A stretch of DNA of 64,000 nucleotides, taken from the NCBI GenBank assembly GCA_963922205.1, contig CAWUHX010000023.1, positions 1,240,001 through 1,304,000 on the forward strand. Reading direction: 5' to 3'. The notes under the pieces are model-generated. The model was given only the letters and a program-made list of their open reading frames with translations, had not been told where the DNA came from and searched no databases. A program made the translations under genes and the position numbers. Shown here piece after piece: positions 3 to 15,200 of the stretch. Numbering within the stretch: the stretch's first letter is position 1; every line of letters starts with the position of its first letter. The DNA comes from Romanomermis culicivorax (lineage: Eukaryota > Nematoda > Enoplea > Mermithida > Mermithidae).

Positions 3-3000
3 TTGGATGGGGACGCCTTGGTAAAATTCGAAAATATTTCCAACTCCCCTAATTCTCCTCAGACGTACGATCAATTTAAACGGGCTCTGCTGGATGCCTT
101 CCCTGTTGTTCAAGACACCCTGTTTCATCGTCAAATCTTGAGGGATCGAAAACAAAAACGAACTGAAACAGTAATGGCTTTCTTTAACGAACTCGAAAAA
201 TTGGGCCGGCTTGCCTATCCTAATTTTGAACTAGCTTTACGGGAGAATTTAATTGAACCCGTTTTCCGTGAGGGTCTGTTGAGTGATATTCAAAGTGTCA
301 TCAAGTACAAACAGTACCCTGATTTAGCTGCCCTTGTTTCTGAAGCCGTATTCATAGAACGACAAATGTTGCGGGACGAAGCCAAAGTCCCCTGTCCTAT
401 GTCATATCCCTCGTTTGTCAGGGAACCAGTTTTAGCGGTCCAACATGAGGACCCTTTGAAAAATCAGGTCGATCAGCTGAGCCAAAAGTTTGACAAAATT
501 TTGGATGAACTTCGAAATCATGGTAAAAATGAAAAACAGAGGCGTTCAGATCACGGTGTCACATGCTATAAATGTGGGAAAAAGGGGCATTACGCTAATA
601 CTTGCAAGAAAGCCCCTGACTCCCCTATGGTTCCTACGAGTTCTTCATGTTCTATTTGTAGTCGAGAAGGCCATGTGGCCTCTGAGTGTAAATCAAAATG
701 TCGCTTTTGTAAAAAAGTGGGACATAAGCACAATAAGTGCCCTACCATAGAATGTAGGAAATGTAAACACAAAGGGCATTTGGAAAAATATTGCCCCCAA
801 AAGTATGGTCAGAATCACAATAATGGGTTATCTATCAATCTCCTGGATAGTGACGACCCTGGTATGACCACTTTAAATCATTGTTCTGTCACAGGTCCGG
901 TCATGTCACTAGCATACGACCCCAACTGGAGTAACGACGAGACGGAAAATCGGGCATGGCCAGCGTCCATTCCGCCAACGCCCGAACCAAGCGAGCCCAT
1001 GTCTGAAGGCTTGTTAAGCGAGGGCGAAATCGAACAGGTCGCTGCTGAAAAACCCACCTTGCCCAAAGACTATAAAATTCCCAAAAAGGGCAAAACCGAC
1101 GTTCGCCCTGGATCCGACAGGCCCCCTGTCTTCGACAGACTTGGTGAGAGGCTTGAAGCTCAAGAAAGTTATTTGCCCCATAAAAGGGCTTTTTCTTCAT
1201 TACAGGGTGTAATGGCAATCAGCGGTATTGCCGCTGCCCGAGGTGCAGGCGGGCTCGGACAGCCCGGAGAAGAAAACGTCGAAATCGCACCCGAAACCTC
1301 GTGGGCCAAGGAAACCAATCGACCGGCCCAGGAAGTCCTCAACAGGGCCGTCGACAAAATGGGCCACGGTTCTTCTTTTCTCGAGCAAACGGCCACAACG
1401 AAAATCGTGGCCAGGGGAAAAGAATGCGTGGAAACCGTCCGAACTGGGGCCGACGCCCCTATTGAAAAGGCCACCACCGCCCATACATTTTCTTTAAAAT
1501 GTGTGTATATTTTTTTCACCATTTTTATGGGCGTAAATAAAGTCTCTTCACTTCAAATTTGTGGAACCTCTCAAAGTGGTCACTCAATCGAAATTCCTAA
1601 AACTGTTTCGTGTGTTAGACCCATGGTGGGTGAGAAACCCCTGACAACTATGGGTAAGCTTTTCGTACCTCGCGAGCACCCTAAGCTATCGCCAGCATTC
1701 AAGTGTAGCATCAGAACCCGAACGATTTGTACAAATACGGGATTTTTCGGTTCCAAAGGTATTGTGGGTGATAATACGAAACTTGCAACACTCACCCCTT
1801 TTGAATGCAAAACTTTTTGGTACTCAAAACTTTACAAGGGTCAAACTTTGAACGAGACCCTTCCAAACTTTTGGTCAACTGCAAATACCCTTAGTGTCGA
1901 ATATAGGTGGTGTTGCAATGATCATTGCAGTTCCGTTGAGAATTTAATCATTGAGGAAGGGCAAGTGGCCTCCTGGGATAATTCGAATCTGCTAAGCACC
2001 CTTGGTGATCTTGGGGGCTGTAAACCCAGTTCAGGCCACTGTGTTGCGTCAGACGGAGTGGTTGTTTGGAATGAAACGACCCTCGAATCTATATGCCCTT
2101 TTGAGTACAAAGACAGTTATATTGTGAAACAAACGGGTCATCATATCATCATTGATGACTTGCAAGCTGCGTTTTTCGTTAAAAGATCAAATTTTTCTTA
2201 CAAAAGTTGCCCTAATATCACAAATGGGCTACTCACCGAACAAGGTGTTGTGATCGAGATCAATCAAACCCTTGTAGAAATGGAGGGTCAGAATTCTCCA
2301 CCTGTATTTGATCTAACAGATTCTGACCCCATCAATGCCAAACTAAATTATTTGGCGTTGAAAATGATTGATTTTGAAATGCAAAGTTTTCGAAACGTCT
2401 GGAGTGAACTATGTAGACAGGCCCAACGCCATTTGGATCTTATATGGCAATTTTTACATCTAGATCCCACTCTGGGAGCAAGGGCCTTCCTCCAACGAAC
2501 CGACATTATTGCGCAGTTCACAGGTGAGGCCATAACAATTTGGCCCTGCAGGCAAGTGAATGCCTCTCGAATTTACAAGAATCATAAAATCAATGGCACC
2601 TGCTATGAACATATGCCAGTCTTACTGGGAAACGACTTGATGTTTGTTTCCCCAGGAGGTGTGGATCTCCTACCCTTTAGCCAAAGGGTGGATTGCAACC
2701 ATCAGCCAATTCACCCTTACAAAATCAGTCAAACTTGGCAAACAGAAATGGGTCCTATTCACGTCAGTAAGGTACCCTTAGAAGTCATTTGGCAGGGAAA
2801 CTTCTCAATCTTCAACTTCAAATCTCCGCCAATATTTCATGGTCAGTTGGCAGCAGTTTCAACTAGCCTATCGTTTTTGAAAAGCTATATGTTTCAGACC
2901 CATGATTTGGAACTTGTGGTCAAAAGACTAGTCAATTATACCTCAGAAATGTCCCTTCACTCAGGGACAGTGTACGAATTTCTGGCTGGGTCCGGACAAG

Positions 3001-6000
3001 CAATCGGTAATAGCATTTCAGGGGCTGGTCAAGCCCTTGAACACGTGATTGTTGGGTCACATCAAAGCATGACCCAAGGACTTAATAACTTGCTGAAAGG
3101 ACCCTTGCAGATGTTGGTAAACTTGGCTGTCCTAATAACTTTTGTGGTTGGAGTTATCTATGTTAGCTACTGGGTCTCTCGATGTGCTAAAAGACCCAGG
3201 CAATTGCCAAGGTATGAGCAGCCGAGGAATCGAATTGCTCCTCCGGTTACTCCTACTCTTGGGCAGGCCCTCTTGGAGTTGGCCAGCCTGAGGAATTCGG
3301 AAACCCAAAACAAATACATTATGGTGCCAAATCCACAGGCCCCTAGTGCCCCTTTGATGGAATGGGTGAATAATGCTACCCATGTGAGCGGCGAAAATCG
3401 AAGAACGCCCCATATTATGGTTAGGGTAAACAAAAACGTCACCGCCAATGCTATGGTAGACTGCGGGGCTACATTTACCTTAGTTGACAAACGAATCATT
3501 GATCAATTGGGTGATATTAAAATTGAACCCACAAATATGACCCCTATAGCTGCCAACAACATGAGCATTCATGTTTTGGGTGCAGTTTATCTCACGATTG
3601 AAGTTGGTGCTATCAACGAAACAGTCACAGCACTCGTTCAAGAAAACTGTGCTGCAGACCTTTTACTGGGGTCAAATTTCCTGTTTCGTTTCAAACAGTG
3701 GGCTATAAACAACGAGAAATCATATGTGAAATTGGAAAACGAAATTGTACCCTGCACGGGGGTTAAATATCATTCGTTACGCCACCGAGGCGGCATTTAC
3801 ATGAATGAACGGGTCATTCTTACCCCAAGAAGTGTGACTGAATTTTCAGTCCCTGTTTCAAATCTTTACAGAAATGAGACTATGGTCCAGTTCTCCCCAG
3901 AACCAAATGTGGCAGAAAAACTACATGTATGTTTTGCTGCCACTGTGAGCCCAGTCATTGACTACAACCTGCGGGTTTCAGTGATGAACCCCTTGAACTC
4001 AGAAGTCACACTGTATCCGGACATGTGCATTGGTTCCGTGGCCTGTTACGTGGCGACCAGAACAGAAGCATACAATGGTAACCTAGATGGGTCAGTCAAG
4101 GAGAAACCCATAAAAGAATGGTTGAACCAAACTGTAGATTTGTCTGGTTCTGACCTTACAGATACGGAAAAACAACTTCTTTTGGATCTGCTGGCTAAAT
4201 ATCCAAACTTATACGCCAAGACAAAGGCAGATGTTGGTCGTACAACACTGGTGGAACATTCAATTGAGACACAGGGTAGCACGCCAGTGAAAAGACCCCT
4301 TTTTCGAACAGCCCCTAAAGAGAAGGCTTTGATTGAAGAAGAAATCAGAAAACTGGAAAATAGTGGGATAATCTCAAAGAGCAGTTCCCCTTGGTGCACA
4401 AATACAGTCCTGGTTAAAAAGAAGGACGGCGGTTTTCGCCTCTGCATTGATTTTCGAGGCCTAAACAATGTGACCAAAAAGGATACATACCCCCTTCCAC
4501 GCATTGATGATATTTTTGATGCTTTGAGGGGTATGCGATATTTTACGACTTTAGATCAAACGAACGCTTATTACAGCATACCAATTGCTGACCAGGATCG
4601 GGAAAAAACGGCGTTCAACTGCTCGTCTGGGCAGTATCACTTCAACTACCTGCCTTTTGGGCTTTGCAATGCCCCTGCAACCTTTCAACGCTTGATGGAT
4701 GTTTTACTTTCGGGGTTACAGTGGTCGAATTGCCTCGTTTATTTGGACGATGTTTTAGTATTCGCACGGACCCATGCAGAAATGTTGGCTCGGCTAGACG
4801 TCGTTTTGAGCCGCATGGATAACGCTGGCTTGAAATTGAAGCTCGGAAAATGTAAGTTTTCGCAGACCAAAGTTCACTACCTGGGCCACATAATCTCTGA
4901 GAAAGGAATAGCTCCAGACCCTGGCAAAGTGGAAGCTATTTCCCAACTTCCTGCCCCGACTAATGTTAGGGAAGTCAAGTCATTTTTGGGTCTTCCATCA
5001 TATTATCGACGTTTCATAAAGGGCTGCTCTATGCTTGCCAACCCTTTGACAAGGTTATTAAAAAAGGATACCCCTTTCGCCTGGGGCACAGAGCAACAAG
5101 CAGCCTTTGACGCACTCAAAACTTGCCTCATTTCGGCCCCTCTCCTGGCTCATCCAGATTTCTCAAAAGCTTTCATTTTACAAACAGATGCCTCTCTGCT
5201 TGGTATAGGCGCTGTTTTGAGTCAAATTGGGGATGACATGCTTGAGCATCCCATTGCTTTTGCAAGCCGTGGGCTAAAGCCCGCTGAGAAAAATTATCCG
5301 ATCACTGAACTAGAAGCCCTAGCAGTTGTCGAATTTGTCAAGTACTTTAGGGCTTATTTGTTTCAACAAGAAGTGATAGTCCATACTGACCACACTGCTG
5401 TCAAGGCGGTTCTCAACAAAGAGAACCCCTCCCCTCGTATTGCACGTTGGGGTTTAGCCTTATCTGGCTTTCAGTTGGATATCAGGCCCCGTCGTGGTGT
5501 GGCCAACCGAAATGCTGATGCAGTTTCGCGTTTCCCTGACCCAAAATCTGAACCCACTTTTGATATCGATACCTTAGAGACTCGTCCAGAGACTAACGTT
5601 GTTCAAACAGACCTTGAAAACACGGAAAGCAAGGGCTCAATAAACATTATCCAAGCCCCAGTCCAAGGTCTAGAAAATGAGGCCACTGATGCGGAAGAAT
5701 TGGCCAAAAACTTTGCAGAATTTCAACTGATAGATACAGACACCTGCAAACTCCTTACGGATCTTAGGAATGGAAATTCCGAACTCTTAAAGCACTATTG
5801 TGAGGAAAACGGGCTTCTCTACCGTCTCTCAAATGGGAAAAAGCGACTTTACATTCCCAAAGCCCTACGTCATGAGGTCATGAGGACCCATCACGACTCA
5901 AAATTTGCGGGCCATTTCGCCTTTGAAAAAACCTTACATTCGATTGCAGACCGGTATTATTGGCCCCGGATGCACAATGATATAAAATCATACTGTGAAA

Positions 6001-7103
6001 CATGTTCAAAATGCCAAATGAACAAACCTGTTAGACATCGCATCAAGGCAAAGATGGTTCCTATCTTCAGTAGTGAACCATTTGAGCGGGTTGGGCTAGA
6101 TTGCATTGGCCCTATCACCCCTTCAATCAATGGAAACTTGCACATCGTCGTCTTCGTCGACTATTTCACGAAATACATGGAGGCTTTCCCGGTACCTAAT
6201 ATAACCGCAAAGACTATAGCCTCTGTTTTCGTCAATCAAATCGTTTGTAAGCATGGTGCGCCCAAAATCATTCATTGTGATCGGGCCTCTGATTTCACAT
6301 CAGAACTTTTCACAGAAATCACAAGATTATGCAGTACCAGAAAGGTACATACGACCCCCTACCACCCTTGCGCCAATGGTGAGGTCGAAAGAGGGAACCA
6401 AACCCTCGTCACACGTCTACGAATGTTCGTCGATGATCGTCACGACGATTGGGATGATTACATCCCTTTTTCAGTCTTCGCCATAAACACTCATGTGAAT
6501 AAAACGACGGGTTTCTCACCCTTCGAATTAATTTATGGCAGGAAGCCCCGATTGCCCTCAGAAACCCTTTTCCCGAGGTCTCCTTATCAGGTTGACCCAG
6601 ACGATTACTTAACAAGGGTAAAAACTTATCTTTCATCCGCATTCGACAAAGTGAACAGAGCAACCAACGAAGCCCAATCGAATTACACTGCTCAATACAA
6701 TAAGAACGCCAACGACACCCAGTATGAAGTTGGAGGCTACGTTCTTCGGAAAACACATACAATGAAACGGCTAGAATGTCCAAAATTCATAACCAAACAA
6801 CATGGACCATTTAAAATCGTTGGTATTTCATATCCAAATATCCTTCTCGAAAATGAAAAGGGTAAGCAATTCACGATCCATGTCAACGAAACAGTACCCT
6901 TTCACTCAAGGGTCGCATATCAAGAAAATGGACCCTCAATGCCGAATTGTTCAATTATCTCGACTCGTCCATCAATCAACAGTTCAAAATCGGCTGGCAA
7001 CAAATGGCGACGTCTATACAGCCGATTCACATCCAAAAATCGACGCCTGGACTGCGAACGAGGACGTCCGCTTTTTAAAGGACGGGAATGTCACGAGGAG
7101 TGA
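3..7103 (+). CDS. Gag-Env-like-Pol polyprotein of LTR retroelement (5' partial)
   Basis: The frame is open at the left edge; the first codon is TTG, so the true start lies upstream. Residues are counted from base 3. Gag: capsid-like region about 1-160, then four CCHC zinc knuckles at 188-201, 216-229, 233-246 and 251-264. A polar linker follows to about 499. Then comes a membrane glycoprotein-like block, about 500-1075. The aspartic protease has its catalytic Asp at 1153 (VDCGA, with Cys where Ser or Thr is usual). Reverse transcriptase carries YLDD at 1580-1583. RNase H is at about 1727-1845. Integrase has an HHCC finger at about 1960-2005 and catalytic Asp2033, Asp2093 and Glu2129 (D35E spacing). 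A GPF module lies near the C-terminus and there is no chromodomain. All catalytic residues are present and no frameshift or stop occurs. Placing the glycoprotein upstream of protease is abnormal for this group, where env usually follows pol. Confidence 0.92.
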   Translation: MDGDALVKFENISNSPNSPQTYDQFKRALLDAFPVVQDTLFHRQILRDRKQKRTETVMAFFNELEKLGRLAYPNFELALRENLIEPVFREGLLSDIQSVIKYKQYPDLAALVSEAVFIERQMLRDEAKVPCPMSYPSFVREPVLAVQHEDPLKNQVDQLSQKFDKILDELRNHGKNEKQRRSDHGVTCYKCGKKGHYANTCKKAPDSPMVPTSSSCSICSREGHVASECKSKCRFCKKVGHKHNKCPTIECRKCKHKGHLEKYCPQKYGQNHNNGLSINLLDSDDPGMTTLNHCSVTGPVMSLAYDPNWSNDETENRAWPASIPPTPEPSEPMSEGLLSEGEIEQVAAEKPTLPKDYKIPKKGKTDVRPGSDRPPVFDRLGERLEAQESYLPHKRAFSSLQGVMAISGIAAARGAGGLGQPGEENVEIAPETSWAKETNRPAQEVLNRAVDKMGHGSSFLEQTATTKIVARGKECVETVRTGADAPIEKATTAHTFSLKCVYIFFTIFMGVNKVSSLQICGTSQSGHSIEIPKTVSCVRPMVGEKPLTTMGKLFVPREHPKLSPAFKCSIRTRTICTNTGFFGSKGIVGDNTKLATLTPFECKTFWYSKLYKGQTLNETLPNFWSTANTLSVEYRWCCNDHCSSVENLIIEEGQVASWDNSNLLSTLGDLGGCKPSSGHCVASDGVVVWNETTLESICPFEYKDSYIVKQTGHHIIIDDLQAAFFVKRSNFSYKSCPNITNGLLTEQGVVIEINQTLVEMEGQNSPPVFDLTDSDPINAKLNYLALKMIDFEMQSFRNVWSELCRQAQRHLDLIWQFLHLDPTLGARAFLQRTDIIAQFTGEAITIWPCRQVNASRIYKNHKINGTCYEHMPVLLGNDLMFVSPGGVDLLPFSQRVDCNHQPIHPYKISQTWQTEMGPIHVSKVPLEVIWQGNFSIFNFKSPPIFHGQLAAVSTSLSFLKSYMFQTHDLELVVKRLVNYTSEMSLHSGTVYEFLAGSGQAIGNSISGAGQALEHVIVGSHQSMTQGLNNLLKGPLQMLVNLAVLITFVVGVIYVSYWVSRCAKRPRQLPRYEQPRNRIAPPVTPTLGQALLELASLRNSETQNKYIMVPNPQAPSAPLMEWVNNATHVSGENRRTPHIMVRVNKNVTANAMVDCGATFTLVDKRIIDQLGDIKIEPTNMTPIAANNMSIHVLGAVYLTIEVGAINETVTALVQENCAADLLLGSNFLFRFKQWAINNEKSYVKLENEIVPCTGVKYHSLRHRGGIYMNERVILTPRSVTEFSVPVSNLYRNETMVQFSPEPNVAEKLHVCFAATVSPVIDYNLRVSVMNPLNSEVTLYPDMCIGSVACYVATRTEAYNGNLDGSVKEKPIKEWLNQTVDLSGSDLTDTEKQLLLDLLAKYPNLYAKTKADVGRTTLVEHSIETQGSTPVKRPLFRTAPKEKALIEEEIRKLENSGIISKSSSPWCTNTVLVKKKDGGFRLCIDFRGLNNVTKKDTYPLPRIDDIFDALRGMRYFTTLDQTNAYYSIPIADQDREKTAFNCSSGQYHFNYLPFGLCNAPATFQRLMDVLLSGLQWSNCLVYLDDVLVFARTHAEMLARLDVVLSRMDNAGLKLKLGKCKFSQTKVHYLGHIISEKGIAPDPGKVEAISQLPAPTNVREVKSFLGLPSYYRRFIKGCSMLANPLTRLLKKDTPFAWGTEQQAAFDALKTCLISAPLLAHPDFSKAFILQTDASLLGIGAVLSQIGDDMLEHPIAFASRGLKPAEKNYPITELEALAVVEFVKYFRAYLFQQEVIVHTDHTAVKAVLNKENPSPRIARWGLALSGFQLDIRPRRGVANRNADAVSRFPDPKSEPTFDIDTLETRPETNVVQTDLENTESKGSINIIQAPVQGLENEATDAEELAKNFAEFQLIDTDTCKLLTDLRNGNSELLKHYCEENGLLYRLSNGKKRLYIPKALRHEVMRTHHDSKFAGHFAFEKTLHSIADRYYWPRMHNDIKSYCETCSKCQMNKPVRHRIKAKMVPIFSSEPFERVGLDCIGPITPSINGNLHIVVFVDYFTKYMEAFPVPNITAKTIASVFVNQIVCKHGAPKIIHCDRASDFTSELFTEITRLCSTRKVHTTPYHPCANGEVERGNQTLVTRLRMFVDDRHDDWDDYIPFSVFAINTHVNKTTGFSPFELIYGRKPRLPSETLFPRSPYQVDPDDYLTRVKTYLSSAFDKVNRATNEAQSNYTAQYNKNANDTQYEVGGYVLRKTHTMKRLECPKFITKQHGPFKIVGISYPNILLENEKGKQFTIHVNETVPFHSRVAYQENGPSMPNCSIISTRPSINSSKSAGNKWRRLYSRFTSKNRRLDCERGRPLFKGRECHEE
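1500..3210 (+). other. envelope-like glycoprotein segment inside the polyprotein
   Basis: This is part of the same frame as Gag and Pol. It opens with a short hydrophobic stretch (residues about 500-513) that could act as a signal or anchor. A cysteine-rich ectodomain with nine N-glycosylation sequons follows (NET, NET, NFS, NIT, NQT, NAS, NGT, NFS, NYT). A Gly/Gln-rich stem comes next, then a strong transmembrane helix at about 1037-1058, then a basic tail (RCAKRPR). This layout matches a viral-type surface glycoprotein. I could not assign it to a fusion-protein class or to baculovirus F, phlebovirus G2 or chuvirus-like families by eye. How it would be made separately from Gag-Pol is not visible: it has no Met directly before the hydrophobic stretch, so splicing or proteolysis may be needed. 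Confidence 0.75.
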
Positions 7104-7260
7104 CAAAAATGTAAAGTTATGTAAAGTTATGTACTGTATATTCTCTGAAAATTCTACCATGTTTTTCCTCCAAAAAAATTCCGGTTAAAACCTGTTTTTG
7201 TACAGTTATTTTTCGTTCATTAGAATTACGAGTTTTATGCACTCGAGCACTTTTTATTGT

Positions 7261-7385
7261 AATTATGCACACCTCAACGAAAATGGTGGCGACAACTCAA
7301 AAACACTAATTAGGAACTCTCGCGTAATTATGCACTTCAACGAAAGTGGTGGCGACATCTAAAAACACTAATTACGGGCATTTGC
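7261..7385. repeat. 65-bp direct repeat, two units, downstream of pol
   Basis: Two imperfect copies start at 7261 and 7326. Each runs AATTATGCAC, then TCAACGAAA, then GGTGGCGACA, then AAAACACTAATTA. They lie between the pol stop codon and the candidate 3' LTR. They could be element untranslated sequence or an LTR-internal duplication. Confidence 0.7.
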
Positions 7386-7890
7386 ATAACAGGGCTAATT
7401 GTGGCGCCCTGTAGATTTCAGAACCTACAGTAACTCAAGTATGGTCCGCGCCGACCACTGTAGGTGTTTTTCATGTCTGAAATGTGGGTCAAGTGGGTCT
7501 GAGACGAAGAAGAAGACCCTGTTTTTCGAAAGATGACCAGTCTTGGTTTTTCGCAGCAACCAGAATAGTTGGATCCGGCGCCGGATTCCATCGGTTATTC
7601 TTCGTTACGCGAATCTTTGGTTTTTACGTCGACCTCAGCAATTGAATCCCGCGCCGGATTCTGTCAGTAATTGTGCCTTACGAGAATCGTCCCGCGACTG
7701 GACCGTTATTTCGTTTGTGTATTTTCGCGCCGAGTGTTACGTAGTGTAATTCCGCACCCGTTTTACGTTTGCGTTTTGCACCGATTTTACATTTCGTATC
7801 GAACCAACGTTTGTACGAAGGTTGTAAGTTGTAAATTAGTAAAGTCAAAACCCAACTTGCTTAGGTACACATCAACCAGTTACAGTAACC
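7386..7890 (+). mobile_element. candidate 3' LTR of the retroelement
   Basis: This non-coding stretch follows the pol frame. It contains TGTAGATTTC at 7411 and ends near CAGTTACA at 7887, giving a TG...CA-type unit of about 477 bp. The other LTR in the window (43047-43950) also ends in TTACA about 40 bp after AGTAAAG. That similarity is the main support. The boundaries are uncertain. Confidence 0.35.
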
Positions 7891-8305
7891 GCTGACAATT
7901 GGTCGGTAGGCGTGTGCTGATTCCGGACCATACGTTTTCACTTATATTAGATTGATTGATAATTTGAGTCGGGTGATAACCGCTAATTGGTCAGTAGGCG
8001 GTCCTATAGGTCGGTAGGCGGTCATTTTCACTTCTGAAAAACCAATAGATTTTATTCGAAAAAATGAAAAAAAACGAAATCCTCGAGAAAATGTCCGAAA
8101 TTTTGTCGATTTTTTTCGAAACCTACAACTTCGAGTCACGTGAAGATCGCTTATTGGTTCGTAAGCGATCTTTCAAGATTCGTGACCATAAAATGTCGAC
8201 TCATCAATTCGTAGATTTGATTGACTAGTATTTCTAGCCACGTGACGTCTGCTGATTGGCGGGTGGCAGGCGTCCCCCGATCACTCCAAGCCAATCAGAT
8301 TGGCT
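7885..8305. repeat. stem-loop cluster with ATTGG loops and CACGTG boxes
   Basis: Inverted repeats with ATTGG in or beside the loop occur at 7977-8001 (arms ACCGCTA/TAGGCGGT), 8144-8169 (GATCGCTTA/TAAGCGATC, perfect 9-bp arms) and 8244-8274 (GACGTCTGC/GCAGGCGTC, one mismatch). A perfect AAGCCAAT-CAG-ATTGGCTT hairpin lies at about 8288-8306. The phrase ATTGGTCGGTAGGCG and variants recur at 7898, 7986 and 8011. CACGTG occurs at 8137 and 8239. The block lies between the retroelement and the 3' end of the aconitase gene. It could be a CCAAT-box promoter-like region or a structured repeat; its function is unknown. Confidence 0.5.
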
Positions 8306-11500: not shown

Positions 11501-12265
11501 ATGGAAAGAACAGCATCAAAAAGAATGACAGAAAATAAGTGAGAAGATCGATAAAACAGAAAGTATAAAAATACAGAAATAAAAATTGAAAAAGAAAGAG
11601 GAAGATGAAAAATCAGATGAAAAAGATTAAGAAAAGCATAGAAAAACGAAAAAGACGAAAAACAAAAATATGAAAAGTAAGGGAAAGGAAAAAAAGAAGA
11701 AACAAAACAACTGAACAAAACATGAAAAGTAACAAAATGAAAAAAAAGAAAAAAAGGAGGGAAAGAAGAAAAAACCCACCAGAGAAAAAGATAAACAAGT
11801 GTGACAAGAAGCAGAAAAATAATGGACAAAAAAATCAAATATGGAATGAAGAGATAAAGAGAAGTTACAGGGACGAAAAAAGAGACAAAAATAGAAAAGA
11901 AACAGAAAGTAAAGAGTGGAAAAAAGAAAAAAAATATGAAGAGAAATGAACAGAAAAAACACAACAGCAGAAACCGAAAAAAGCAACAAACCTGCAAATA
12001 AGGTCCTTTGGCCGCCCAATCCCTCGACGATCCTGATCCGTATTCTTTACCGGCTAAAATGATAACCGGATGTCCTTCTTGTTTATAACGCATGGCGGCG
12101 TCGAAAACGTCCATTTCGTCGCCGGACGGTAGATGGACGGTCCGCGGTCCGGTTTTGCCGCCCAGAAGTTTGTTAATCAAACGTATATTGGCGAACGTGC
12201 CGCGGGCCATAATTTCGTCGTTACCTCGACGCGAACCGTACGTATTGAAATCTTTGACCGTAACG
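8555..12265 (-). CDS. ACO1: aconitase exons 16-18, C-terminal swivel domain
   Basis: Exon 16 (11992-12265) carries [10 protein letters not shown] and [12 protein letters not shown], with the substrate-binding arginines. Exon 17 (10577-10762) carries [13 protein letters not shown] and LGLTGTERF. Exon 18 (8555-8674, 120 bp) encodes the conserved end, [16 protein letters not shown] through MIRKLI, and stops at 8555-8557. Exon 18 is too short to stand out as an open frame. I located it because exon 17 ends at a good GTGAGC donor about 40 residues short of the family C-terminus. A 1.9-kb purine-rich (transcript-sense) intron separates exons 17 and 18. Confidence 0.94.
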
Positions 12266-15200
12266 CTGAGAAAATGAAAGTTTAAAAACACTTTACATTA
12301 AAGTGTAAAAATTGAATATAACTTTACACTAGGTTAAAAACTTTTAAGTTTAAACGAGAGTAGTCAGCACTTTACACAAATCAAAAATCTAAAGTTTAAA
12401 CTTTGAATTTGATTCAGATTTTAATATTCAGAAATCCAAAACATTTTGAAGAGAAATACTCGCCAGCACTTTACACTTTACATTATGCCATGCCTAAAAA
12501 TTTGACTTCACACTTAAACTGGATTCTACTAAAGTTTTAGGCATCGAAAATTTGAACTAAATCGCACAACTAATTTTTTCAGCATTTTACACAAATTAAA
12601 ATCCTTCAAGTGTACCCAAATTTTAAACAATAAAAATTCACAAAATTCGGAAGGAACCTTTTCCAACACTTTACACAAAGGTATAAGTGTAAAGTTTGAT
12701 TTTATAATGTTGGACTTGACTACTCAAGCCGAAGCTTCAAAAATTCAAATAAAGTTGAAGAACGAATGTTTTTCAACATGCAAAAAAACACAAATCAAAA
12801 CTCTTAAAAACACAAATCAGAACTCTTAGATTGAAAGTTAAAAATTGATTCACATTTTAATCATAGAAAATTCTTGAAAAAAAGAACGCTTTCTAACACT
12901 ATACACAGAGCTACATACACTGATTCTTCAAATTTAAATTCGATTCTCAAATTTAAATTCGATTCTCAAGTTTAACTTACTAAAACTAGAATTACTCGAA
13001 GAACAAATGTTTCTCAACAATTTACACAAATGAAGAGTACTTCGAACTTGATCTAGATTCTTAACCGCAAAAATTTTAAACTGAATGTTTCGTTACACTG
13101 CACAAAAAGCTATGCAAAGTTGGAATTCATGGCTTTCAACTCGATCTCAAATTTTAAATTTCAAAAAAATCCGAAGAACGAAAACTGCTCAGCGCTTTAC
13201 ACACATGAAAAATCTAAAGTTTACACGTTGAAATTGACCCATATTTCAAACCTTGAAAAGATACATATACCGGTGCCACGGAGTTTGGGAGGTGGGGTCG
13301 GGCGACTTTTTATGAACTGGGGGTCACAGATTCCCCAAATTTTGGGGGAGAGGTCTCTGAGGGGAAAAATCGAATTTTTCTCCAAAAAAGTCCGGAAAAC
13401 AGTTCAAAAAATGGTTATTTTTGTCTAAAAAACCGCGAAAAATGTATTCATGGCGCCAAGCGCCGAAAAAAATTCACGTTTTACGGATATTTTTTATTGA
13501 AAACTGACGTTTTTCAGTATTTTTCCGACCAGGGGTATGGGGGTCCCTATGACTGACTACCATATGGCTAGCCATAGGATTGGAAAATCCTGGGGGTCAT
13601 CCAATAGCTAGCCATATGGCCACTTCCCCCATTACATCTATACTCGAAAACATACATGTAATTGGGGGGCAGTAAACTGAAATCTCGGAATTCAGGTTCC
13701 AATTTTTAATCAAGTGGAGATTACACTTTTCAAGTTGGAAATTCTATTTTTCCTAATGAAAAGTCCTCTTTTAATTTTCGAAGCTTAAACTTCGGAATCG
13801 GTTCTGAGGTCTGGAGGGTCGGGCGACTTTTTTTGGGGCCGGGGGTCACTGATTCCCAAATATTAGGGGGAGAGGTCTCTAGTAGAGAAAAAATTGATTT
13901 TTTCACTGAAAAAGTTTGAAAAATGGTTTTAAAAAAATAATTTTTTTTTCTAAAAATCCGTAAAAATGTATTCATGGTGCGAATAGCCGAGAAAATAGAC
14001 TTTTTTGATCATTTTTAGTTCAAAAGTTGACATTTTTCAGTATTTTTTCCAAAAATTAAGAAACCCGAAAGAGGAATGTTTTGCAAAATTTTACGCCGAG
14101 TAAAATTTGAATTGTACGATTGAAATTTTCTCGTTATTTTATAAAATCAGAAACTTCTTATAAAATTAAACGTAACACTTCAAAATTATTAGAAGTCTCA
14201 CAATAAAATGATTGATTTTCTCATATTTCGCCCCATATTATAAATAAAAACCTTGCAACTTAAACTTGACTCAAGTCTCAAACAAGGAACAAATCCGAAA
14301 ATCAGTATTCTAAATTTTTGAAAAAATCCAATTAGATCTTAGAACTTCAAAATCTCGAAATTCCAGAAGTTTAAAGATTATATTTTTACATTACATCTTA
14401 TCCCAAACTTTAAACTCCCTTTCATTTCAAACATTTGTGACATTTTACGACTTTATAACTCTTGGTTCAATCGTGATTTAAAACTTTGAAATCATTTAAT
14501 TCAATAAATAAACATTTTTTCAACATTTTACACCAAATAAAAATATTTACACTTTATATCTGATTCCAACTTGTGAAACTCCAATAATTAAAATAGAAAC
14601 GTTTTCGAGCATTTTAAAACAAATTACAACTTTCAACCCTACATGTAATTGGGGGGGGGAAGTGCTATGGGAACCTCCCCCCCAGAAATCGTCGACCATA
14701 TGGCTAGCCATTGGGCGACCCCCCAGGATTTTCCAATCCTATGGCTAGCCATATGGTAGCCATGGGAACCCCCATTCTTTTTAGTCGGAAAAATACTGAA
14801 AAATGTCATTTTTTCCATGAAAAATGTCAATTTTTGAACAAAAAATGGTCAAAAACGTTAATTTTCTCGGCGCTTCGCGCCATAAGTACATATTTTATCA
14901 TTTTTTAGACAAAAATTACTACTTTTTAAACCGTTTTTCGAACATTTTTCATGGAAAAAATCGAATTTTTTTCCTTCAGGGACCCCTCCCCCCAAAATTT
15001 TGGGAATTACTGACCCCCGGCCCCAAAAAGTGCTCCGACCCCCCCCCCCCCAGACCTCGGAGCTCCGTTACATGTATGCTTTCAACTCACACTTCAAGAC
15101 TTATAATTTTTATGTTGAAACATACCAGAATTTTAAAAAATCACTTTTTGCGTTTTACACACTCAAAGTTTAACATTTTAAACTCCAGAAAATTTCGCCA

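Follow-up and report, generated by a model that had tools for sequence, protein, structure and literature searches.

The closest described counterparts of the element reported here, a Ty3/gypsy retroelement of Romanomermis culicivorax, a mermithid nematode that parasitizes mosquito larvae, are found among retroelements with long terminal repeats (LTRs), several of which carry a captured envelope gene. The locus was analysed in a 64,000-nt stretch of DNA (the window; contig CAWUHX010000023.1, C23 below, positions 1,240,001 to 1,304,000), where Gag, an Env-like glycoprotein, protease, reverse transcriptase (RT), RNase H and integrase follow one another in a single open reading frame (ORF). Published elements are compared with it on the passages cited for each.

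Gypsy elements that bear an env have been described, some of them said to carry type III fusion glycoproteins (PMC13172572). The errantiviruses (Drosophila gypsy, ZAM) resemble the present element in combining a Ty3/gypsy pol with a captured env. However, their typical order is gag-polyprotein-env (PMC10379392), their env is spliced (PMC12992720) and their integrases are said to lack a GPY/F motif (PMC5408687); here env stands between gag and protease in one frame, rather than downstream of pol, and the integrase has GPF. In Chibugado virus, an unclassified member of the Metaviridae from mosquito, env is likewise reported to precede pol, but in the order env-gag-polyprotein (PMC10379392). A nematode single-frame polyprotein that includes Env is described for Atlas virus (Ancylostoma, Bel-Pao; 2,828 residues), which differs in its Gag-Pol-Env order, its class II phlebovirus-like Env and its Bel-Pao RT (PMC9094657). 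Capture of a class III-type glycoprotein by an LTR element is represented by Anakin (mosquito Bel-Pao, chuvirus glycoprotein) and Tas (Ascaris); these are Bel-Pao elements, and in Roo, Tas and Cer-7 Env is said to follow the polyprotein (PMC7642597). For Gypsy elements, PMC10084718 reports no clear capture. Cer1, a Ty3/gypsy element of C. elegans, likewise has one large frame with no gag-pol stop and encodes an extra protein, CERV, which is however a nuclear protein and not an envelope (PMC10309623). No gag-env-pol element was found in the literature searched, a search that did not cover the metazoan env-gypsy set of Chary and Hayashi 2025; the passages of PMC13269885, PMC6238403, PMC8556966 and PMC5408687 that speak of a place "upstream of pol" or "between gag and pol" do not describe this order either.

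Results

A complete element with Env inside one open frame

A reading of the window from its sequence only had described one intact frame, at 3..7103, ordered Gag, Env, protease, RT, RNase H and integrase. Pfam matches bear out this order, and the frame is open throughout its 2,366 codons; the other two forward frames contain 112 and 156 stops over the same interval, and the chance of such an open run at the base composition of the ORF is about 10^-58. The limits of the frame needed revision. It begins upstream of the window, with the first in-frame AUG at C23:1239685 and an open frame even further upstream, and its stop codon (7101-7103) sits inside the 3' LTR, which starts at 7089. From AUG to stop the frame measures 2,472 codons (by subtraction).

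With its 5' flank (L009) the element is complete: it spans 9,234 bp (C23:1238664-1247897), the 3' 86% of which falls within the window. Its two LTRs are 809 bp each, have the termini TGTCACG...GCTGACA and differ by a single mismatch, and the whole is flanked by a 4-bp target duplication, ATTG. The near-identity of the LTRs points to a recent insertion. A sequence beginning six bases past the 5' LTR, TGGTGACC, is also present in the leaders of two further copies (L061 and L062) and is a candidate tRNA primer site.

Assignment to Ty3/gypsy follows from the order protease-RT-RNase H-integrase, an RT whose closest solved counterpart is that of Ty3 (3.9e-80), the TG...CA LTRs and the 4-bp duplication. 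The RT thus separates the element from the Belpaoviridae, the position of env separates it from the gag-pol-env Retroviridae, and the termini and duplication separate it from Troyka, which has CG...CG and 3 bp (PMC12440569). In Gag, CCHC knuckles score above the Pfam cut-off and the capsid family below it. Altogether, we hold with high confidence that the locus is a Ty3/gypsy LTR element, young and intact in structure, with a class III-like env placed between gag and pro-pol in one frame.

The order is shared by copies throughout the genome

The genome assembly (G000; 359,112,060 bases in 595 contigs) was searched for further copies. At least 74 Env matches were obtained, a lower bound since 73 of 4,172 candidates were scored; they fall into groups of 35 (90-100% identity), 5 (68-72%), 19 (58-60%) and 15 (55-56%). 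Of the 74, 26 sit in frames that run for 2,400 codons or more without a stop, across the four identity groups; therefore the in-frame fusion itself has been kept. The 30 best-scoring of the 74 (L010-L039, among them the copy in the window) all present Gag capsid first, then knuckles, Env pieces and protease, and the start of RT was located in 27. The same holds for one copy each from the 60, 58, 56 and 68% groups (L040-L043, the last of them decayed).

The converse comparison started from RT and covered the best 49 of 104 scored matches, the 55 lower-scoring ones being at 72-73% identity. A scored Env lies within 6 kb upstream for 34 of the 49, and the 6 kb downstream contain none of the 74 listed Env matches for any of them, so that env after pol, the arrangement that would have spoken against the sequence-only reading, did not appear. 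Upstream sequence was examined for 4 of the 15 RT matches without a scored Env, and none showed a different order: L064 and L065 do have Env, missed earlier because it lay beyond the Env matches scored, L063 has an internal deletion yet retains the end of Env before the protease, and L066 is cut by the contig end with the end of Env visible before the protease. Three other gypsy families of the genome (L044-L046) have neither an Env match before the protease nor a hydrophobic segment between Gag and protease, and were rejected as further cases. One RT match (G000:C122:531866-533065) stands out by the length of its open frame, 3,612 codons, which greatly exceeds that of its relatives.

Eleven of the 14 other stop-free close copies were compared with the window copy for substitution rates, three being left out for indels. 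The dN/dS ratio is 0.09-0.29 for Env and 0.15-0.92 for the Gag-Env linker. Between subfamilies, Env has pN 0.25-0.29 and pS 0.75-0.81, the latter saturated; dN/dS was computable for one pair and region, synonymous sites being saturated elsewhere. Env is retained as a protein under purifying selection.

Relatives outside the genome

The metagenomic polyprotein P0011, whose Env is 34% identical, carries Env (811-940), protease (1172-1264), RT, RNase H and integrase in one frame, and a knuckle ahead of Env (244-260) that falls just below the Pfam cut-off (19 vs 20.8 bits). Env also precedes protease and RT in P0009, in P0010 and in P0007, which is partial. P0008, named R. culicivorax, has Gag joined to an Env piece and protease. 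Two of four database matches bear this species name, and at 51% identity over 47% and 84% over 8% of the query they differ from the window copy. The features recognised in P0033 are a knuckle-like motif, a hydrophobic segment, an ectodomain rich in Cys, a transmembrane segment and a protease with DTGA; it was not matched by the Env-only profile at E up to 10, and its Env was found by profile-profile comparison only (probability 83%, E 8.6e-6). It is likely a distant Env-in-middle case, short of proof. Two Env-bearing contigs, those of P0006 and P0007, are filed under bacterial names as metagenome-assembled genomes and are probably misbinned eukaryotic contigs. When viral_contigs and genome_contigs were scanned with the Env alignment, 35 and 121 pattern matches came up, respectively, and none was confirmed. 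Plant and fungal matches of an earlier profile were dropped as evidence of Env and taken as RT matches because that profile included protease and RT columns.

An RT tree of 25 rows was built, 8 candidates having been dropped as too short; references were few, and Bel-Pao references absent. One clade (100/100) comprises the R. culicivorax subfamilies, P0009 and P0010. In contrast, P0011 and P0007, the latter short, cluster with L044-L046 and P0014 at weak support, an arrangement in which the Env-in-middle trait needs three changes. A single origin of all Env-in-middle elements is thus not shown.

The order gag-env-pol is nonetheless a conserved trait of a lineage, which bears out the sequence-only reading in order, intact frame and lineage. 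Its further suggestion that the lineage is possibly undescribed stands within the literature searched, the env-gag-pol order of Chibugado virus being already in print. The odd order was the sole reason to envisage an assembly join, a chimera of two elements or dead debris. Since the order is common to all 30 loci, the four further subfamilies and the metagenomic proteins, and a single unit is enclosed by the LTR pair and the target duplication, we reject a join or chimera and regard this whole class of explanation as having a negligible chance of being right. The length of the open frame also argues against random debris.

Sequence places Env among the class III fusogens

All the parts of a glycoprotein announced by the sequence-only reading were found between the knuckles and the protease: a signal-like segment, an ectodomain with nine sequons and 16 Cys (residues 19-538 of P0002), a transmembrane segment and a basic tail. 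Env matches the Pfam family Monjiviricetes_fusion (PF24664) well above the cut-off (Table 1), and the bornavirus G and herpesvirus gB families below threshold; 7 of 8 members of the Env alignment match the class III fusion family at E up to 0.1. A single Env sequence matched no solved chain at E up to 1. The profile of eight Env sequences matched the solved chain "Envelope glycoprotein B" at 1.7e-4 and a near-identical chain named ORF8 at 4.7e-4, followed by weaker gB chains (0.11-0.12) and one unrelated chain (0.86). Because of the Pfam match and the gB chain found by the profile, Env is by sequence a class III fusogen (Monjiviricetes/gB-like), an identity that the sequence-only reading had not given.

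The catalytic residues had been called complete, but the protease motif is D-C-G-A instead of D-[S/T]-G-A. DCGA is found in the window family, L040, L041 and L043, DTGA in L042 and DSGA in P0009.

Signal segment and start of Gag

A signal-like hydrophobic segment lies just ahead of Env in all six sequences that reach that far (the window, L040-L043 and P0011). Its letters vary among the six; its place and hydrophobic nature are constant. P0009 as predicted starts downstream of it. A run of seven T residues within the segment differs in 5 of the 30 loci (L018, L025, L028, L030 and L034), where linker and Env are in different frames, through decay or slippage. In a 59%-identity copy on contig C26 (L049) the Gag-Env linker is much shorter and the segment comes about 45 residues past the last knuckle.

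At the 5' end, the frame is open upstream of the first AUG of gag in four subfamilies, with a conserved peptide (E[T/A]L...F.RI...; L009 ~5619-5684, L060, L061, L062) that has no in-frame AUG ahead of it in any of the four. In L060, L061 and L062, though not in the window, a CTG that has A at -3 and G at +4 occurs five or six codons before the peptide. Gag may thus start at a non-AUG codon or via an upstream exon.

How Env might be expressed

Splicing, internal initiation and a membrane-spanning polyprotein had been put forward as routes to Env. The first and last are retained; internal initiation is disfavoured. Under the latter, an AUG or an internal ribosome entry site ahead of the signal segment would yield Env, and an in-frame AUG does closely follow an acceptor-like site in the window and L040. 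However, the closest in-frame AUG upstream of the signal is 42, 32, 168 and 129 codons away in the window, L040, L041 and L042, respectively, and since this distance differs among the four subfamilies a conserved internal start is unlikely. We regard this route as very improbable.

The membrane-spanning polyprotein is ranked first because it alone directly explains the in-frame join of Gag, Env and Pol; we give it an even chance of being the way in which Env is expressed. The genomic RNA would be translated into a single Gag-Env-Pol polyprotein, Gag being synthesised first, in the cytosol. Two cleavages, by signal peptidase at the Gag-Env boundary and by the element's own protease at the cytosolic face of the Env tail, would release Gag, Env bound to the membrane, and Pol. 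Further Env could come from a spliced mRNA, and Env would let particles enter new cells. With one predicted signal, one predicted transmembrane helix and the enzymes downstream, the topology is coherent. Taken as a whole, an intact gag-env-pro-pol element expressing a Gag-Env-Pol polyprotein is, on balance, the explanation that we favour.

Several points weigh against it. One polyprotein gives equal amounts of Gag, Env and Pol, and retroelements usually require an excess of Gag. A signal after some 600 residues of cytosolic Gag is unusual, the P0009 prediction lacks the segment, and 5 of 30 loci are out of frame at its T run. The predicted protease departs from the usual motif. Finally, the acceptor-like sites in the linker speak for splicing.

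These sites are the main support for the explanation ranked second, in which Env would come mainly from a spliced mRNA joining an upstream exon to a linker acceptor before the signal, while unspliced RNA would give Gag(-Env)-Pol. T-rich CAG sites in phase 0 precede the signal in the window (TTACAG/GGTG), L040 (TTTTTTCAG/GGTG), L041 (ATTTTCAG/GCC) and L042 (TTTTACAG/A), and in 10 of 13 further linkers (L047, L048, L050-L053 and L055-L058); insect env-gypsy elements typically splice env (PMC12992720), and CERV of C. elegans Cer1 is spliced with part of gag (PMC10309623). Yet there is no such site in the short linker of L049 or in the decayed L059, that of L054 is out of phase, and so is a higher-scoring site in the L040 group. 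Phase-0 donors in early Gag score low (2.6-4.3), and in L009, L060 and L062 the highest-scoring donor within Gag is in phase 1. The scores themselves come from a hand-made scheme, neither trained on R. culicivorax nor set against a chance expectation. Moreover, splicing alone leaves the in-frame fit of env to both its neighbours unexplained. We therefore rate it as possible but doubtful.

Removal of Env as an in-frame intron, giving Gag-Pol, with Gag-Env made from unspliced RNA, would solve both the Gag:Pol ratio and the topology, and some donor- and acceptor-like sites do occur in and around Env. No conserved donor/acceptor pair bounding Env was shown, however, and the join of Gag, Env piece and protease in P0008 is that of a predicted database protein. 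This arrangement appears improbable.

Features of the element and its surroundings

The features of the element are collected in Table 1. About 4 kb from it, the window contains an aconitase-like gene exon on the minus strand (11995-12270; Pfam Aconitase_C, 1.2e-23). Strong strand asymmetry is also apparent in the window: 8-10 kb is T-rich (AT skew -0.41), and 10-12 kb (0.23) and 20-22 kb (0.60) are A-rich.

Table 1. Coordinates of the gag-env-pro-pol element in the window (a slash marks the putative splice junction).
Feature	Position in window	Strand	Evidence
Gag, upstream part, start at C23:1239685 or earlier	outside window, in L009	+	5' flank
Gag, C-terminal part: capsid-like region and CCHC knuckles	3..842	+	zf-CCHC 9.3e-9, best stretch residues 187-203 of P0001; Retrotrans_gag 0.0045, below cut-off
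Gag-Env linker, weakly conserved; acceptor-like TTACAG/GGTG, phase 0, ending at 1205	843..1484	+	
Hydrophobic signal-like segment, in frame within polyprotein; holds T7 run 1510-1516	1485..1538	+	
Env, class III-like fusion glycoprotein (bounds approximate)	1503..3302	+	PF24664 1.5e-16, 60 bits vs cut-off 27
Aspartic protease, DCGA motif	3393..3707	+	PF13975 9.5e-9
RT (YLDD) and most of RNase H	4203..5402	+	PF00078 1.2e-35, PF17919 9.4e-37
RNase H end, integrase (H2C2 zinc domain, rve core, GPF motif), stop codon	5403..7103	+	PF17921 2.7e-23, PF00665 1.2e-8
Purine-rich stretch before 3' LTR, within coding frame; candidate polypurine tract	7077..7088	+	
3' LTR, 809 bp; one mismatch vs 5' LTR (L009 4664-5472)	7089..7897	+	
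Target duplication ATTG, 3' copy	7898..7901	+	

Discussion

In positive-strand RNA viruses such as flaviviruses, capsid, glycoprotein and polymerase can be encoded in that order in one polyprotein, with an internal signal after the capsid, the glycoprotein on the lumenal side and the enzymes in the cytosol. The likeness to the R. culicivorax element is one of layout only, and no homology is claimed. A broader proposal, plausible although we put it at somewhat less than an even chance, is that the element belongs to a deep lineage, found in a nematode and in the hosts of several metagenomes, encoded as a membrane-threaded Gag-Env-Pol with an internal signal, in a layout like that of positive-strand RNA viruses and unlike that of retroviruses, and perhaps with a non-AUG start.

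Gypsy elements with class III envelopes have been described before; what is new, within the literature searched, is an Env in the middle of the polyprotein. In the descriptions consulted, env-bearing retroelements have env after pol or, in one reported instance, before gag. A lineage with Env in mid-frame must handle expression, topology and stoichiometry differently, and this one manages it in many copies. With it, the class III fusogens captured by retroelements include an example from a nematode Ty3/gypsy element, and the idea that an LTR element might build an enveloped particle from one membrane-spanning polyprotein becomes testable.
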